This document shows, piece by piece, positions 2,238 through 13,300 of a DNA stretch of 22,218 nucleotides. Source of the stretch: a virus; the IMG/VR virus record IMGVR_UViG_3300037237_000037, positions 1 to 22,218 of that record. One strand, written 5' to 3'. The notes under the pieces are model-generated. The model saw only the letters and a program-made list of their open reading frames with translations. It had not been told where the DNA came from and did no database searches. Within the stretch, counting starts at the first letter, position 1. Each line of letters starts with the position of its first letter. Made by a program: the position numbers and the translations under genes.

Positions 2238-3736
2238 TATTGTTTCACCAGTTTCCCATCGGCACCGCGTACCCAGTTTTCAGCGTCCCCGCCGCCTTGC
2301 GGTTGCGCCTGGTTTGGATGCGCTTGCTCCTGCATCTTCTGGAGCCAAGGCAGCATGGTCTGAATAGTAGCTTTCAAGTTCTCCGGCGACTGCTGCGGGG
2401 CGTTAATAGCATGATCGAATTCCTGCCGCAAATTCTCAGGCAACCGCCCTTGAGCGTGGGCGAGAGCAACCGCGCTGGACATCATCAAAAGGTCGGAACG
2501 CAATTCCGCCATTGGAGCGTCTGGAGCGCCCACTGTTCCCTGCATGAATTTGTCCCATCGACCACTCAGCGGACCTATTTCCTTCGCCGTCGCGTCAATC
2601 CGCGCAAGCACTTCGGGAGCCATCTCTAGAACTGTTTCAGCGCGTCCTGCTGCCGTGCGCTGCGTCATGGTTGGGGTATTTGTCGAGTTCAACCCAGGTG
2701 CCGTTTGCGCCCCCGCAGGGACAGGTTCTCCTGGTTTGACCCGGATCATCTTCGTGCCGCCTTTGCCGTCTGGAACGAAGAAATTCTGCCCTTCCTTCTC
2801 TCCGGCGTTGACGGCCACAGCAGGCCGCTCGTAATGCTTGCCGAGGTCTACAACCTTGTTCCCCTTCTCATCCACCCCGTAAACGTGCGGGCCGTCTGCC
2901 GCGTCCACCGTTTGATAGGTGAGCTTCACGGGTGCTCCGATAGGCTTGCCGTCTACCGTGACATGTTGCGCCGTTCCGTCGGGGTGAATCATCATCGGTC
3001 CAGACGGCGTTTCCTCGTATTTTGGCGCAGGGTTTTGGAGGTTGGCCGTCTCCGCGTTCTCATGTCCAGCAGTAGCGTTCTCTGCGCCGATCTTCGCCTC
3101 AGCCTCTGGTGCAACCTCCGGCGTCTCTGCATTCGTCTTACCAGCCGTGGCGTTCTCGTTCGCAGCCTGCGCCTCTTTCTGCGCGTTTTCGGTGTCTTGC
3201 GTCAGTGCTGTATTGGCGCGGCCCAGATTGCGGCTGTAATTTCCTTCTGTACCGGGAACCATACGCTCAAGTCCCGGCGCAGCGGCATGGAGCAGCGTGT
3301 CTCCGACCATACCTGCGCCTTCCGCAGCGCCGCCGAGCAACTTACCTAAGAATGGATGTGCTTGCCCGAACCGTGACCCTTCTACATTATGAGCAATGTT
3401 CTCAACACCCGGTTTCTGCCCTAAGAGCATCCCGCGCTCGTTTGTATCGCCCTCAATTGTTCCCCGAGGTGCTTTCACGGTTGGCGGAGTCGAAGTTGGA
3501 AAACCCGAAAGAGAGGGTGCTGGGCTTTCCATTGAGATTGTTCCCTGCGGCGGTCCATCGTCAGGCTGGGGCAACAGCATTCCATGAGGGATAACCGGAG
3601 CTGCAGATGGGCTTGCGGTGGAGGGCGCCTGAGCGTTGCCGCCCATCTTCGCAACGACGGCCTGCGCATCGGGCGACATCGACTGGATGTGTCCCTGAAT
3701 CTCGCTCAATATCGGATTGAAAGTGAAGCCGTCCAT
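2237..3736 (-). CDS. Probable internal virion protein with 25-residue repeat (499 aa)
   Basis: ATG at 3736 follows directly on the TAG of the upstream gene; a weak purine-rich GGGGATGGG lies upstream. The N-terminal half (residues 30-110) is Pro/Ala/Ser-rich and probably disordered. A helical, Ala/Glu/Asn-rich region (about 170-235) contains two copies of ENATAG-x-x-NAET at residues 194-205 and 219-230, 25 residues apart. Residues 240-300 are beta-rich with DG and GK turns. A helical C-terminal part (about 355-475) includes a segment around LEMAPEVLARIDATAKEIG. No catalytic motif was recognised. Composition, length and neighbours fit an internal virion or ejection protein, but this is inference. 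Confidence 0.55.
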   Translation of the reverse strand: MDGFTFNPILSEIQGHIQSMSPDAQAVVAKMGGNAQAPSTASPSAAPVIPHGMLLPQPDDGPPQGTISMESPAPSLSGFPTSTPPTVKAPRGTIEGDTNERGMLLGQKPGVENIAHNVEGSRFGQAHPFLGKLLGGAAEGAGMVGDTLLHAAAPGLERMVPGTEGNYSRNLGRANTALTQDTENAQKEAQAANENATAGKTNAETPEVAPEAEAKIGAENATAGHENAETANLQNPAPKYEETPSGPMMIHPDGTAQHVTVDGKPIGAPVKLTYQTVDAADGPHVYGVDEKGNKVVDLGKHYERPAVAVNAGEKEGQNFFVPDGKGGTKMIRVKPGEPVPAGAQTAPGLNSTNTPTMTQRTAAGRAETVLEMAPEVLARIDATAKEIGPLSGRWDKFMQGTVGAPDAPMAELRSDLLMMSSAVALAHAQGRLPENLRQEFDHAINAPQQSPENLKATIQTMLPWLQKMQEQAHPNQAQPQGGGDAENWVRGADGKLVKQ

Positions 3737-4393
3737 CTATGCACCCATCCCCGCCGAAGCCCCGTTGATTCCGCTGACCGCATTCAATCCAAATTGCTTC
3801 AGAAGCGATTGCCATATAGTCGGCGCCGCGTCTCCCGCATTCTTCAGTGCAGCATTCGAGGCATTCAAGCCGCCCAATTCGGCCGATGTGTTCGTTCCGT
3901 AGAGACTTCCCAGCCCCTTGAGTCCTTCGGACTGCTGTTCGGTCTTGAGCTTCTGGTTCTCATTTTGCGTCGAGAGATTGGCCTTTGAGAGATTCTGGCT
4001 TGCCGCCTCACTGCTCTTTGCGATAGCAGCGTCTGCCGTGCCAGCGTTCTTTGTGCGCGCTGCCAGCAATGAACCTTGGCCGACCGCGCCGGCGTTAGCC
4101 CCGCCTGCGGTCTGCATGTTTGATGTTTGGATTTTGGCCATGTCCGCCGGGTTGATGCCTTGCGGATTTGTGGCCATCGTGGAAAGGGTCGGGCTTAGAG
4201 TGCCGTAGAGCGAGGCGGCGTTGTTTCCGGCAGTCGAGGAGATTTGATTACCCGTCTGGGCGTTTGCGAAGTCGTCTTTCTTGACACCGCTGCCGGTATT
4301 GCACAATTCCAACGTGCCCGAATACTCAAAACCCTCGTCTGAGAGGATTGAGCCGCTTTCGATGTCAATGACCGTCCTGGTGTGTACCCTCAT
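3737..4393 (-). CDS. Probable internal virion / tail-associated protein (218 aa)
   Basis: The chosen start, ATG at 4393, has a good ribosome site (GAGGTGAAGG) just upstream and overlaps the end of the GNAT-like gene by 29 bases. The first 35 residues (RVHTRTVIDIESG...FEYSG) are a compact beta-type motif; the remainder is Ala/Asn/Ser/Gln-rich and predicted helical with little charge, as in internal virion proteins of short-tailed phages. The stop TAG abuts the next gene's ATG, implying coupled translation. No enzyme motif is visible. It could equally be a small tail-assembly or scaffolding-like protein; placement in the ejection block rests on order and composition. Confidence 0.5.
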   Translation of the reverse strand: MRVHTRTVIDIESGSILSDEGFEYSGTLELCNTGSGVKKDDFANAQTGNQISSTAGNNAASLYGTLSPTLSTMATNPQGINPADMAKIQTSNMQTAGGANAGAVGQGSLLAARTKNAGTADAAIAKSSEAASQNLSKANLSTQNENQKLKTEQQSEGLKGLGSLYGTNTSAELGGLNASNAALKNAGDAAPTIWQSLLKQFGLNAVSGINGASAGMGA

Positions 4394-4742
4394 CCTTCAC
4401 CTCGAAGATCGCGGACTGAAAACCCTCTTTCCAGCCCAGCCCAGCTAGCCTCCGCAGGAAGCTCCGTTCAATCTTCGGTGCGATGAGAGCGACTACCCTC
4501 TTGTGCCCCGTGTCGTTCATCCAACGCAGAAACTCAGCCTGAATCGTCCTCAGCCAATGCGATCGTGCTGCAGGATGGCCCTTTGCCAGCACAAGAACCG
4601 CTTCTGGAACCATCCTGATACCAGCGTGGCCTACAATCCTGCCATCTTCGACCAAAACCCGCTCATAGGCCAACCTTGGGACGTTTCCATCATACAACGC
4701 CTCGATTTGGGCAGTATCGGAATCTTGTCTTGCGCGAATCAT
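4365..4742 (-). CDS. GNAT-fold-like protein (125 aa), probable virion-associated
   Basis: The ATG at 4742 overlaps the preceding stop by four bases (ATGA). The layout suggests a GNAT acyltransferase fold: an N-terminal helix (RARQDSDTAQIEALYD), strands around ERVLVEDGRIVGHAGIRM, a central strand (AVLVLAKGH), a long helix (SHWLRTIQAEFLRWMND), strand VVALIAPK and a C-terminal FLRRLAGLGWKEG like the F-x-x-x-GF end of GNATs. The usual acetyl-CoA pyrophosphate loop (Q/R-x-x-G-x-G/A) is not recognisable; KGHPAARSH sits in its place, so activity is doubtful. From memory, GNAT-like proteins occur next to internal virion proteins in several podoviruses, which fits here. A true host- or virion-modifying transferase remains possible. 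Confidence 0.6.
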   Translation of the reverse strand: MIRARQDSDTAQIEALYDGNVPRLAYERVLVEDGRIVGHAGIRMVPEAVLVLAKGHPAARSHWLRTIQAEFLRWMNDTGHKRVVALIAPKIERSFLRRLAGLGWKEGFQSAIFEVKDEGTHQDGH

Positions 4743-5317
4743 CGAACTGGAGGCTTCCCGGTCGAACTCCTAAATGCAACTGGCCCCGGACCAGAGATTA
4801 CGCCAGCCGAGCCGGTCCCGGTTCCCTGCGACGGCAACCAGAGAGGCCCCGCGACGCTTCCGCCGCCCTGTACGGCTCTGGGGGTCACGCCGCCATGAAC
4901 GACCGGCGAAGTTGGGCCTGACCACGGATAGGATTTGTATGCTTGGACGTACCTGGTTTGGTTGCCGATGAATTCAGTGTGGTTGCGAAGCTCCGTGCCC
5001 GACGCCTGAGTGTGGATTGCGTTCGTGAAGTTCGGATTATCGGCGTGAGCCACCCAGTATTGAACTCCCCGGTAGAGCGGCCCCTGATCGTTTAGGGCGA
5101 CGTGCATGTAACCATCGCGGGCCGTGACCTGAATGCCAAGAGGCGCTGGCGGCGGCTGAGGTTCCCCAGTGGGATTGCCGTTCGTCTGGGCCAGGTGATT
5201 CGAGATTGCGGAATTCAAGTCCTGAATCGCCTCGTACAGACGTGCTCCGTATCCTGTCCCTGCCGTGGCGGGATCGGTGGCTCTGAGGTAGTCGAGATTG
5301 CGAATCTTGAGTGTCAC
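4739..5317 (-). CDS. Fibronectin-III-like virion protein (192 aa, GTG start)
   Basis: I place the start at the GTG at 5317, which overlaps the stop of the nozzle gene as GTGA; AAGGGG lies about ten bases upstream. The frame is open further upstream, but that part lies inside the 1200-residue gene in another frame and is a shadow. Residues 1-46 form a helical segment (KIRNLDYLRATDP...LNSAISNHL). A Pro-rich linker follows (about 50-60), then a domain of about 85 residues ending RYVQAYKSYPWSGPTSP, the hallmark end of a fibronectin type III fold. The tail is Gly/Ser/Pro-rich and probably disordered. FnIII domains are common in phage tail proteins and often assist surface attachment. It may decorate the tail nozzle; the exact role is unknown. 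Confidence 0.6.
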   Translation of the reverse strand: MTLKIRNLDYLRATDPATAGTGYGARLYEAIQDLNSAISNHLAQTNGNPTGEPQPPPAPLGIQVTARDGYMHVALNDQGPLYRGVQYWVAHADNPNFTNAIHTQASGTELRNHTEFIGNQTRYVQAYKSYPWSGPTSPVVHGGVTPRAVQGGGSVAGPLWLPSQGTGTGSAGVISGPGPVAFRSSTGKPPVR

Positions 5318-8300
5318 TGCGCTGCGCCCCTTGTCTTGAGCCTGGTCGGAATCAGCGCCACGGTCACCATCTGAATGTTGTAGGCATTGTCCGTCTGTCC
5401 AACCAGCGGCACAGATGAGAACTTGAGAAAGAATCTGCTCCCACGAGCAATAATCATCCCCCCGTAACCCCACTGAAGATCGATGTTCGGCTGACTCACC
5501 GTGCGTTCGCAGGAAAGCGGCCAGATATTCGCCGGATTGTTCGGAGCAACCTGTACCAGCATTGTCCCGGCTGGCCAAGTCACGGTTGCAAGAACGCCGA
5601 AGAACCCCTTCTGATGGCTTCCGACTTGCAATTGCTGCTCCGCGCCCCTGTTGACAAAGCCGTAGGTGTAGTAGTAGCTCGACACAAGCCCATAGTCGTC
5701 GTCTGTGTACTTGTTCGGATTGAGCGTGTAGACGTTCCCAAATCCGCCGACTGCAGGCGTCGATCCATTTCCCCCTCCGAGCACAAGCGAGAGCGTCCCA
5801 GCGACGCGATACATCAGCGCGGCGCCGTTCATGCTCATATTCCAAAGTGACCATTTGCGGGAGTTGTCCGTCGCAATCAGTTTTCCGCTGAAAGACACTC
5901 GAAACGGTGGAGAATTGGCGATAGATTGAGCCGAGTCGAGTTGGCGATACGACATGAATAGAAGTTTGCTGGGAGCGGTCGCAGTTCCCATCGGGACGCC
6001 GAAATAAAGCGCCCTTTCTACCGGATCGTTCACGCACCAGACCGTCAGAGCCGCCGCGGGATTGATTTGTTCCCAATCGGGCTGGATTTCCTGCGAAATC
6101 TTGTCAGGGTACGCACCTCCAAAGATTCGCGCGCCGGAAAGACTCGCCCAGGCCATCCACTCCTCACCCCCGGAGGCCGCTGTGTCGTCCGCTTGGCTCT
6201 TCGTGAGGGAAAAGGCCGATAACGCACCGCAGTTCGCCCCAGCCTCGTTTACGGTCCATCCTGAAGGCTCTGTTGTCCCGTTGTCAGTTGTTTCATGCAG
6301 CCTGCCGCTTGGTTCCTGGGTGAGCATGTAGAACGTCTCGCGCATGACGCCAAAATCCATGACCTTGCGCGTGTCAGTGACAGGCCCGAACTTGCCCGTT
6401 ACTCCGTCGATACCCTCTTCGTTGTTTCCGTAAGAACCAAAGAGAACGCCATCGAGATACGGGGTCTGTGAGTAGATCGCGCTGATTTCATCAACCAGGA
6501 TCGTTCGGTTTGTCACCGTCGAAACCGCATAGATGGTCAACAGCATGTCATTCGGAATAGCCTGCGGCATTGTGGCAGAGAAGTTAGCCTGCACAAAACT
6601 CCCCGACACACTCATTGCCGCACCGTTGATAGTGGCTGTCGAAGTAAAACTTGCCAATGCACTTGAAATCACGGCGTAGAAGTTCAGATTTGCATCGATC
6701 GCGCTCGGCTTCAACCACACGCGCAAGGTGTACGGCGTGTTTCCAGTGAGGATCGGATTTCCATAGGCGTCCTCGTAGGCGGACTGAGATAGGACGCCCG
6801 ATTGACCAGCGCCTGCGTTCGCAGTGATGAGCCAGGCGGACGATGGTGGCAATGATGGGTTAGCAGACAGCGTTCCAGGGATGGCGCCGAGCGTCCAGCC
6901 GGCCGGGACCGTAGGCGCTGAAGGCAGATACCCTCCATCGAAGCTGAGATTGAGGAAGTTCTGAAGCCGATTGCGCTGGCCGTAGGTGATGAGACGGGTT
7001 GCATACTGCCCAAACCCCAAAGCCCCGTCTAGCACAATCTGCTGCTTTAAGTCATTGCCGGGTTCTGAAGTTCCAAGGCCTCCAAACAGCGAATTGTCAG
7101 AGAAGTCGAGCAACACCGATGTCGTCGTATTGTCGTTGATCTGCGTTGCAGTAGAGACGATTTGCCCATCGACCTGAGACGGATCAGGAAGGTAGTAGAA
7201 ATAAGCGCCATCCGCACCTGTGAACTCAAGGATGCGTGCCACGACATTTGCGGGACCGATGGGAATGTTTGAGACCTGAACGTATTGCCCCCCGTTTGCA
7301 ATGAATTTCACATAGGGGCTTGGCTTCAGCACCGCGCCCTGCCGCGTGAGGAAATTCACGCGCATCAGATGGAATCCAGGTGCGGCTTGACCAAATGGTG
7401 TGACCGTCCCTCCAGTTGCGGTTGTAGTCCCATCTGGCCCGTATTGCTGATAAGTAAATGAAGTCGCGGACGGAATCGAGGTCACATAGAATGTCCCGTC
7501 CCATGAAAATGAAACAACTCCACTCGTCCAGATGCCGTCCGCATAAGTGATAGGAACCTGAAACGTGGTTGGTGTGGGACATTCCTCAACTTGGAAATAG
7601 ATCGGGTCGGGTGTGCTCGCTGGGATGGGCCAAGCGACAGCAACCGCCAAGCCAGTTTCTGTAAGCGGAGCTGTACCAAGCCCAATTGTGAAGAAAGAGA
7701 AACTGTTGGGATCGTTCACACTCTCAATGGTCACTTGTGTATTGAATACGGCTCCCGCGCCGGCCCCGCCGCTTATGGTCACCGTGCTACCTGGGATTAG
7801 GCCATGCGGAGACCCCAACTCCATCGTAACGACGTTGCCATTCCATGCTGCAGACCAGGATCCAGACCCGCCAACCAAAACTGGATTCACCCCGGTTATG
7901 GTGACATTGTTTTCTGGCTGCAACCCATGTGGAGTAACCGTCGTCACGGTGGCCAAGCCAGGATTCTGTTCATTGTCGATCACGATTGAAGCGATCCCGC
8001 CCCCGATGGCCAGAACGCCATTGCCTTGCATCAGCGCCTGATAGCCGATCCTCAGATTGTGGTTTGCTGCTGTCGAGGCAGACACTTGATTGTTGAGCCT
8101 GACGAGGGTTGTCCCGCCTTGGACCGTCGCAGTCCCCCCCGTTCCAGTCTGCAAAGTTGCCGAAAGGAAAGAGACCACAAACACAGTTGGGCTGATGACA
8201 CTCAAAATCGGCCAATATTGATTGAATGTCCCGTTCGTGTTTCCCGCGATCAGGACGGCCCCAGAAAGAGAAGTAGGCGCAGAGGCCAGCGTGACAGTAA

Positions 8301-11574: not shown

Positions 11575-11583
11575 AAGGTAGCA
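11575..11583 (-). promoter_or_regulatory. Possible extended -10 element before the post-capsid gene
   Basis: On the minus strand TGCTACCTT follows the hairpin directly and partly fits the extended -10 pattern TGnTATAAT. The surrounding GTGCTACCTTAAAG is a near copy of a motif upstream of the terminase small-subunit gene. There is no evident -35 box and the gene starts only seven bases away. Weak on its own; listed because of the recurrence. Confidence 0.15.
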
Positions 11584-11609
11584 CGGCTCACCTGGTTAGA
11601 TGAGCCGCG
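11582..11609 (-). terminator. Hairpin after the capsid gene (terminator-like or processing stem-loop)
   Basis: Arms CGGCTCA (11584-11590) and TGAGCCG (11601-11607) form a perfect 7-bp stem. On the minus strand a U-G and a C-G pair can extend it to 9 bp with a 6-base loop. It lies 12 bases beyond the capsid stop and before the next start. No T-run follows in the direction of transcription, so it is not a classical rho-independent terminator. It may attenuate, block exonuclease or mark an RNA end so that capsid mRNA accumulates. Confidence 0.4.
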
Positions 11610-11619
11610 CCGTCATGGT

Positions 11620-12885
11620 TTATTTTCCGAAGTAGCCCTTGGGGATCGTCACGTTGTTGATGAACGCATTGATGCGCGGCATCCACGAGCCCACTTGCAC
11701 GCCCATGATCATCCAGAACATGTTTGTGGTCGCAACCGAACCATCTGCCGCGTACTGCGGGAAGGTGGTTTGGCCGTCAACCTCGTACATGTCCAGCGCC
11801 TTGGCTTCGAGACGGCCCCACTGCTTGAGGGCGAAGAAGTCGATGAGTCCCGGAATTGCGCGGGGGTTCACGACCATCTCATAGCCCGCCATTGCGGAAG
11901 GGGTCTTGCCGGCCAGCATGTCAGCGGACTCTTTGCGCTTGCCGGATCCGATGTCGATGCGCTGCACCAGAAGAGCGTTATCCTCCCATGCAGCCGCCAT
12001 ATCGACGTTGCAGTGGACGATTAGGTCGTTCTCGTCTGCGGCTTCGATTCCTTTGGCGAGGATGATCTGCGCGAGCATGGCGCGGACGGTTGCCGGGACC
12101 AGAGCGCCATTGGCCGGGATGTTGCGCGCGGAGAACTGATCAGGATAGGTCGAGCGCAGGATGTTCATAAAGTTGCCGGTGTTGCCAGCAACCTGGTAGT
12201 AGTTGCGCCCGAATAGTCCTGAGTTGGGCACGCCTGCCGAGCCGGAGACGAGCAGGTAATAGCCACCTGTGACACCACCGGGGACCGGCCCCGTAAGCCA
12301 AAGGGTTGTGTTGGTAGTGTCTACGGTCTGAATCGTCACTGTGCCGACGAAGCCAGCAGCGCCAGTCAAGGCCGAGTAGATATCGATCGGCTGTCCCGAC
12401 TGGAAGAAATCGGCATTGTTGACAACGAGGTAATTGGCCCCAGCGGTGACAACAGTGTCCAGCGTGTTTGCGCCGTCGCCTGTGCAGAGAACCGCATCCA
12501 TCATGCCCGCGAAGGTCCGGGTTACGGTCTCTTCGGTGTAGGCGACGTAATCCTTGATCGAGCGGGAATCTCCCTCAGTCGCGTAATCGGATTGCGCGGT
12601 ATAGGCGCCGCCCTGCGAGAAGTACACACAGGAGAGTTGCCCATAGACTTCCTGGGGGCCATCACCAACGCCCAGAGATCCGCCATTCGGATTGAACTGG
12701 CGAAACGCCGCGGTCGGAATCGGGGTGAATGGGATGCGCGAAGGGCGCGAGGAAACAGGCTTGATGTCCGTTCGTGCTTGGACGCGGCTCCAGAATACGG
12801 AGGAAAGGAGGAAAGTCTCTTCGAGCTTGTCCCGCAGATACTCTCGCTGGGACGCAATTGTGTTTGCATTATTGCCTGGGGGCAT
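11620..12885 (-). CDS. Major capsid protein (421 aa)
   Basis: I chose the ATG at 12885 because GAGGTG lies six bases upstream; a GTG nine bases earlier is part of that ribosome site. The N-terminal helix (SQREYLRDKLEETFLLSSVFWSRV) leads to an extended strand (RPSRIPFTP), followed by a long helix region (residues about 105-135), as in HK97-type capsid folds. Residues about 139-216 form a beta-rich insertion (VDTTNTTLWLTG, GGYYLLVSG). The C-terminal half (PATVRAMLAQIILAKGIE, DLIVHCNVDMAAAW, GYEMVVNPRAIPGLIDFF) resembles the A-domain region, and the end (NMFWMIMGVQVGSWMPRIN) a terminal strand. Position after portal and scaffold agrees. It has the longest leader in the operon and a hairpin behind it, both suiting high expression. 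I know of no closer named family. Confidence 0.85.
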   Translation of the reverse strand: MPPGNNANTIASQREYLRDKLEETFLLSSVFWSRVQARTDIKPVSSRPSRIPFTPIPTAAFRQFNPNGGSLGVGDGPQEVYGQLSCVYFSQGGAYTAQSDYATEGDSRSIKDYVAYTEETVTRTFAGMMDAVLCTGDGANTLDTVVTAGANYLVVNNADFFQSGQPIDIYSALTGAAGFVGTVTIQTVDTTNTTLWLTGPVPGGVTGGYYLLVSGSAGVPNSGLFGRNYYQVAGNTGNFMNILRSTYPDQFSARNIPANGALVPATVRAMLAQIILAKGIEAADENDLIVHCNVDMAAAWEDNALLVQRIDIGSGKRKESADMLAGKTPSAMAGYEMVVNPRAIPGLIDFFALKQWGRLEAKALDMYEVDGQTTFPQYAADGSVATTNMFWMIMGVQVGSWMPRINAFINNVTIPKGYFGK

Positions 12886-13087
12886 GGGACACACCTCAAG
12901 TGAATTTGAGTTGCTGTCGCCATTCCGCCGCCGGCCGATCGCTACGTTTTTTGGTGGGAGTCACGCGCTCCGGGCGATTCCATTGCAAACTTCGTGGAGA
13001 TACTTTCAATTGTGCTATCCGCGCTTGGCTACCGTTTAAGGAGTTCGGTTTTCCTCTTGCCTTGCGCTTCAAGCGATTACGAACCCA
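12886..13087 (-). other. Long untranslated leader of the capsid gene
   Basis: These 202 bases are the longest gene-free stretch within the operon, where other gaps are mostly under 20 bases. The only minus-strand ORF of note is a 13-codon one starting MESPGARDSH. A TTGAAA (a possible -35) lies in the middle but without a convincing -10 at the expected distance. The last bases hold the GAGGTG ribosome site. It directly follows the cold-shock gene. It may hold a promoter or a regulatory leader; I see no defined riboswitch or strong hairpin. Confidence 0.4.
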
Positions 13088-13300
13088 CTATATCACGGTC
13101 ACCGCATCTGCCTGCGGCCCTTTCTCTCCTCTGACCACCGCGAACGATACCCGTTGCCCTTCTTTGAGCGCCCGGTAGCCGTCCATATCGATGGCTGAGT
13201 GATGCACAAAAACGTCCTTGCCGCCGCGATCTGGGGCGATGAACCCATATCCCTGCGGGGCCGAAAACCACTTCACAGTTCCTTCAATCCGTTCGTCCAT
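13088..13300 (-). CDS. Cold-shock-domain protein (CspA family)
   Basis: This 70-residue protein is one complete cold-shock domain, the usual length of the CspA family, which binds single-stranded RNA and DNA and melts RNA structure. Residues 10-21 contain the RNP1-type motif [12 protein letters not shown] and residues 29-35 the RNP2-type motif DVFVHHS; the key aromatic residues Trp11, Phe12, Tyr18, Phe20, Phe31 and His33 are all present. The C-terminus ([24 protein letters not shown]) is typical too. The start ATG overlaps the previous stop (TGATG) with AAGGTGAG as ribosome site. It lies between the probable scaffold and the capsid genes, an unusual place for an RNA chaperone. It may aid late mRNA translation; that is inference. 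Confidence 0.95.

Follow-up and report, generated by a model that had tools for sequence, protein, structure and literature searches.

The mRNA of the cold-shock gene cspA has a long leader. The nearest known system to the leader described here is, however, that of gene 32 of phage T4, an autogenous translational operator. There, gp32 is described as binding a pseudoknot that lies 67 bases upstream of the start, from where it spreads over the ribosome site (PMC3014915). The same source describes a single pseudoknot in this leader and, 3' of it, an A+U-rich stretch without structure that covers the ribosome site, as well as a message that is long-lived (PMC3014915).

The leader studied here precedes a coat gene. 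The whole stretch of DNA that was analysed, here called the window, is a 22,218-base virus record, in which the genes of the minus strand are packed almost gap-free. Between the TAG of a cold-shock gene (13090-13088) and the ATG of the coat gene (12885), 202 bases of the minus strand (13087-12886) are left untranslated. The two flanking genes are:

13088 to 13300, minus strand: cold-shock protein gene, 70 aa (Pfam CSD, 8e-28), whose last codons contain most of the putative promoter −10 element.

11620 to 12885, minus strand: coat (major head) protein gene (PHROG 14242, major head protein, 7.6e-5), with relatives in 12 contigs.

A 202-base gap in a compact operon was what the first-pass annotation had pointed out, and a survey of the 24 junctions among 25 minus-strand genes, chosen from the list of open reading frames, confirmed it. 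The next real gap is 51 bases long and lies directly behind the coat gene, whereas the only larger nominal gap, of 571 bases (5313-4743), is covered by an open frame at 4739-6076 whose start is unassigned. A GTG at 12894 shares the frame of the coat gene, but this caveat is countered by the conserved N-terminus of the coat protein (M, then G4 and N6), which starts at the ATG.

Relatives of the locus were identified in 12 other viral contigs (L014 to L023, L027 and L028, the last of these on the contig labelled L026). All 12 were found via the coat protein in scans of viral contigs, some of them first via leader patterns. A phage collection gave no match to coat, portal or leader, and scans of genome contigs with coat alignments found no relative. 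Furthermore, a literature search found no description of such a leader.

In all 12 relatives a leader precedes the coat gene. Their coat proteins are 68-88% identical to that of the window, with only partial coats in L021 and L023. For 10 of the 12 relatives, the identity of the leader to that of the window was set against identity at fourfold-degenerate coat sites. The first-pass annotation had named a lack of conservation beyond the ribosome site as an outcome that would speak against a functional leader. This was not seen, as the leaders of five relatives (L014, L017, L018, L022 and L028) are 0.82-0.87 identical to that of the window, versus 0.38-0.50 at fourfold sites. This is exemplified by L028, where a leader identity of 0.87 accompanies 69% identity of the coat and 0.38 at fourfold sites. 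Leader identity is 0.74 in L019 and 0.69 in L015 (fourfold sites 0.44 in each), 0.44 in L020 and 0.43 in L027 (fourfold sites 0.37 and 0.38), and in L016 it is 0.41, which is less than the 0.47 of its fourfold sites. The leaders of the two loci with partial coats are 0.72 (L021) and 0.59 (L023) identical to that of the window.

Conserved coding capacity in one frame, the second outcome that would have told against the leader, was not found either. Over the 180 bases before the coat gene, stops occur in all three frames in 11 of the 12 relatives, the exception being L027, where the leader is longer and different and one frame is stop-free over the bases tested. It is barely conceivable, then, that the stretch is a short gene or a readthrough of the cold-shock gene: the open frame of L027 would fit, as would a 58-codon TTG frame (13072-12896) that is open in the window and shares the frame of the cold-shock gene, but neither Pfam nor PHROG gave a hit, and the TTG frame was rejected on account of stops in the relatives. 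A mini-frame beginning ATG AAG TTT GCA, present in several relatives, was also rejected; its ATG is absent in the window, and in L017, L019 and L021 its fourth codon is followed by a stop, as read by eye.

From the 5' end, the leader carries the following features:

13087 to 13095, minus strand: extended −10 element TGATATAGT, a motif found in 12 of the 13 leaders, with a predicted transcription start at about 13080.

13021 to 13067, minus strand: outer stem (GCGC at 13067-13064 with GCGC at 13024-13021) enclosing PK1; in an RNAalifold analysis of 9 leaders, 33 of 36 cells are paired, with one two-sided change.

13027 to 13061, minus strand: PK1, a GGC/GCC stem around an H-type pseudoknot (GAGGA/TCCTT and CCG/CGG).

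12979 to 13020, minus strand: linker containing GTATCNCCANGAAGTTTGCA, from the alignment of 9 leaders.

12938 to 12978, minus strand: PK2, an ATCGC/GCGAT stem around an H-type pseudoknot (GGAG/CTCC and GCGT/ACGT), with an A-rich loop.

The motif TG-N-TANNNT of a sigma-70 extended −10 element was found at a kept place in 12 of the 13 leaders, starting 17-34 bases before PK1 (34 in eight, 17-24 in four; in L023, which is without PK1, the distance was measured to the GGC in its place). The background frequency of this motif is 104 in 258,400 positions, so that about 0.02 would be expected per 60 bases searched. In L019 it is not beside PK1 but sits at the end of the cold-shock gene, ahead of an insert. 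This insert (L019 2541-2800) comprises about 260 bases between the promoter motif and PK1 and contains a 13-base inverted repeat, GGAAGTAATCAGG/CCTGATTACTTCC. It folds to −106.7 kcal/mol, a raw energy obtained without shuffles, has no Rfam match and is possibly another RNA module.

The cold-shock genes provide a natural control. Where the cold-shock gene abuts the leader, the motif lies in its last codons (6/6 loci), whereas in six others (L015, L016, L018, L020, L022 and L027), where the two are apart, the end of the gene is without the motif, which is instead found beside the leader (6/6). In L018 it begins just 3' of the cold-shock stop. By comparison, then, the putative −10 element stays with the leader where cold-shock gene and leader separate. 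In L015 a terminator-like hairpin is followed by TTGACA-16-TAATAT and then by PK1; 0.4 and 0.3 such sites would be expected from shuffles. The simple sigma-70 scan for −35/−10 hexamers that gave this site in L015 gave no promoter in the window or in L016. Across the leaders, transcription is predicted to start 2-19 bases ahead of PK1. An internal promoter had been among the guesses of the first-pass annotation, and it is supported by this comparison, as is its guess of an RNA element by the covarying pseudoknots PK1 and PK2.

The stems of both pseudoknots were aligned by hand, because RNAalifold draws nested pairs only and MAFFT shifts columns where loop lengths differ. The PK1 alignment comprises 12 leaders, all but L023; in its 11 distinct rows, 119 of 121 cells are paired, and three pairs show two-sided change. 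Since the shuffles used here ignore kinship, the fractions that follow are not probabilities: among 5000 shuffles, the paired count of PK1 was reached by none, its number of two-sided pairs by about 2% and its number of pair types by about 28%. The first knot stem occurs as GAGGA/TCCTT, GAGGG/CCCTT or GATGG/CCATT, with the end pair lost in L020 and L028, and the second as CCG/CGG, or CGG/CCG in L027. The letters of PK1 are well kept in 11 of the 13 leaders; L027 has another sequence there, and L023 none. A model built on PK1 gave one strong match per contig except in L023.

For PK2, 82 of 84 cells are paired over six distinct rows from seven leaders (the window, L014, L015, L018, L022, L028 and L023). 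There are six two-sided pairs, a result reached by 1 of 5000 shuffles, again with kinship ignored. The enclosing stem accounts for two of them and the knot stems for four, all four from the single row of L023, which is the source of all variation in these two stems. The remaining leaders carry other sequences at this place. Those of L017, L019 and L021 follow the same plan, as does the other sequence at PK1 of L027, and a third sequence, in L016, L020 and L027, can be drawn alike. That dissimilar sequences with a similar plan take the place of PK2 suggests the fold to be more important than the letters. A search of viral contigs with a PK1 pattern and patterns of the three PK2 versions gave matches confined to this group; L026 was added by a PK2 pattern.

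The PK1 model also matches the second knot weakly in L005 (4912-4951), L010 (570-609) and L012 (1573-1612), with E values of 0.52-0.81; these matches hint that both knots could be related copies. A further weak match (E 0.17) lies at 2185-2227 of L027, at the start of an ASCH-like ORF (below the Pfam cut-off) behind the cold-shock gene; it is perhaps the remnant of a split leader, or chance.

RNAalifold, in which the knots are undrawable, predicted 34 nested pairs for 9 leaders, seven of them with two-sided changes, with a small covariation term (−0.44), and it pairs the surroundings of PK2 otherwise than the pseudoknot model does. A knot descriptor gave at least two separate hits in 10 of the 13 leaders (L027 being searched over 310 bases); L020, L023 and L028 each gave a single hit. 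Where there were at least two, the best two coincided with PK1 and PK2 in nine leaders out of ten. With 60 shuffles per leader, 17-52% contained a hit and 0-10% equalled the best score. Of 451 tiles from six loci, leaders included, 195 had at least one hit and 46 at least two, and the descriptor is therefore too loose to prove much alone.

That the promoter alone matters and the leader RNA is passive is, given these results, distinctly improbable. The promoter motif is indeed the most constant feature, and the folding energy of the whole leader is unremarkable, being no better than that of shuffles (z +1.0, knots not counted). A passive RNA would, however, leave unexplained both the compensatory changes in the stems and a leader identity of at least 0.82, despite saturated fourfold sites, in five of the 10 relatives compared.

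The leader was also searched for known RNA families. At the gathering cut-off, Rfam gave no match in the window or in loci covering the leaders of all 12 relatives, and at E ≤ 10 only implausible weak matches appeared (window and L004). A tRNA scan found none. The analogy to the cspA leader proposed in the first-pass annotation thus found no link, none of the 13 loci matching any Rfam family. The same results bear on a metabolite riboswitch, in which the pseudoknots would be aptamers and a hairpin at the start site the expression platform. A folded domain followed by a ribosome site in a hairpin is the arrangement of translational riboswitches, and the well-kept letters of PK1 in 11 of 13 leaders would agree with it. 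We nevertheless consider this very improbable, as there is no Rfam family in 13 of 13 loci and nothing sensible at E ≤ 10 in the window and L004, and L027 and L023 have, respectively, another sequence and none at PK1. Furthermore, the replacement of PK2 by unlike sequences of like plan in relatives speaks against a metabolite aptamer at PK2.

Two further hairpins, one at each end of the coat gene, are predicted:

12884 to 12923, minus strand: predicted hairpin over the Shine-Dalgarno sequence GAGGTG (12897-12892) and the start codon, which recurs, with varying stem letters, in 9 of 13 leaders.

11580 to 11611, minus strand: 14-bp GC-rich hairpin directly 3' of the coat gene (z −3.7 versus shuffles); a clear T run is absent.

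A like hairpin, which takes in the A of the start codon as well as the ribosome site, is predicted in the window, L014, L017, L018, L019, L021, L022, L023 and L028; the start sites of L015, L016, L020 and L027 fold otherwise. Its stem letters differ in L019, in L023 and in the pair formed by the window and L017. In the window it is only slightly more stable than shuffles (z −1.7), and the start region clearly beats shuffles only in L014, L015, L023 and L028 (z −2.1 to −5.0). Pairing of the ribosome site at or above the 0.61 of the coat gene was found at 5 of 21 other starts in the window. By these predictions, the pairing of the coat start site is not unusual for this phage.

A translational switch operated by a protein would be another use of such a hairpin. 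The cold-shock, coat or scaffold protein would bind the pseudoknots or single strands and so open or close the start site, in the manner of T4 gp32. The T4 gp32 leader is the precedent (PMC3014915). That the leader is a target of the cold-shock protein had been the third guess of the first-pass annotation. A relative of the cold-shock gene, of a single-strand-binding type, lies upstream of the leader in all 13 loci, which makes its product a natural candidate for the protein that would work the leader, and the start-site hairpin recurs in 9 of 13. However, an ORF separates the cold-shock gene from the leader in five of the 13 loci (L015, L016, L020, L022 and L027; L019 has its insert), so that adjacency of the two is not the constant, and their synteny may merely reflect one clade. 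Sequence swaps in PK2 would alter a specific site, and pairing at the start is, as shown above, ordinary. We therefore regard this explanation as doubtful.

In L020, a 144-aa ORF on the opposite strand (2360-2794, minus), HNH-like by eye and without a Pfam hit at 0.01, lies between cold-shock gene and leader. Thr/Pro/Ser-rich ORFs occupy this place in L015 (2397-2726) and L016 (2254-2727); they have no Pfam family above cut-off and, by eye, are perhaps surface proteins.

On the 3' side, a similar GC-rich hairpin was found behind the coat gene in 9 of the 11 loci with readable DNA, and the 80-base stretch behind the coat out-folds shuffles in 10 of the 11 (z −2.7 to −7.3; the exception is L018). 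The coat message may therefore have a boundary at each end. In L026, a gene of the recombination endonuclease VII family (3312-3902, minus strand; Pfam 1.2e-19) lies close behind the coat gene, at the usual place of the GC-rich hairpin.

On balance, we think that a promoter and a structured 5' UTR with conserved pseudoknots give the coat gene a separate mRNA and tune its stability or translation. In this phage, the extended −10 promoter overlaps the last part of the cold-shock gene; it would start transcription about 20 bases before the 5'-proximal PK1, which would be followed by the exchangeable PK2 and then by a ribosome site able to pair in a hairpin. The knots may keep the coat mRNA from being degraded from its 5' end and, perhaps together with the start-site hairpin, set coat translation, while the strong hairpin would close the message on its 3' side. 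The outcome would be coat protein produced in the excess that capsids require. Comparison of the 13 loci shows the conservation of the leader, the lack of a kept reading frame, the position of the motif and the covariation of base pairs. From these we infer the activity of the promoter, the place where transcription starts and the effect on stability or translation, the translational part being weakened by the shuffle and other-start controls.

Phages need far more coat than portal or scaffold protein, from genes that are neighbours, and the comparison supports a conserved promoter and RNA fold exactly at the coat gene, in a phage group whose coat, portal and leader are without match in the phage records searched. 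A bolder and rather improbable version is a modular phage RNA switch, in which tandem, interchangeable, stem-enclosed pseudoknots and the start hairpin would be operated by the phage cold-shock protein; by melting the hairpin, this protein would license coat translation late or in the cold. If true, the virus would encode an RNA chaperone with an mRNA target dedicated to it.

Among known systems, the cspA leader is likewise long and conceptually associated with a cold-shock protein, but here the leader precedes the coat gene and not the cold-shock gene, and has no Rfam match. Translational riboswitches of the preQ1-I type likewise have a short H-type pseudoknot with an A-rich third loop ahead of the ribosome site; they differ from the coat leader, which is without an Rfam match and whose second module is exchanged in sequence between relatives. 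The T4 gene 32 leader has one knot, and its gene encodes a single-strand-binding protein, whereas here there are two stem-enclosed knots and a coat gene. Furthermore, its ribosome site is described as unstructured and A+U-rich, while a hairpin is predicted there in 9 of 13 coat leaders. Because its ribosome site is predicted to pair and protein binding to it is conjectural, the coat leader is not filed under the T4 gene 32 type. What the two share, through the covariation of PK1 and PK2 and hence by comparison, is that the mRNA leader of a phage gene contains an H-type pseudoknot ahead of the start codon.
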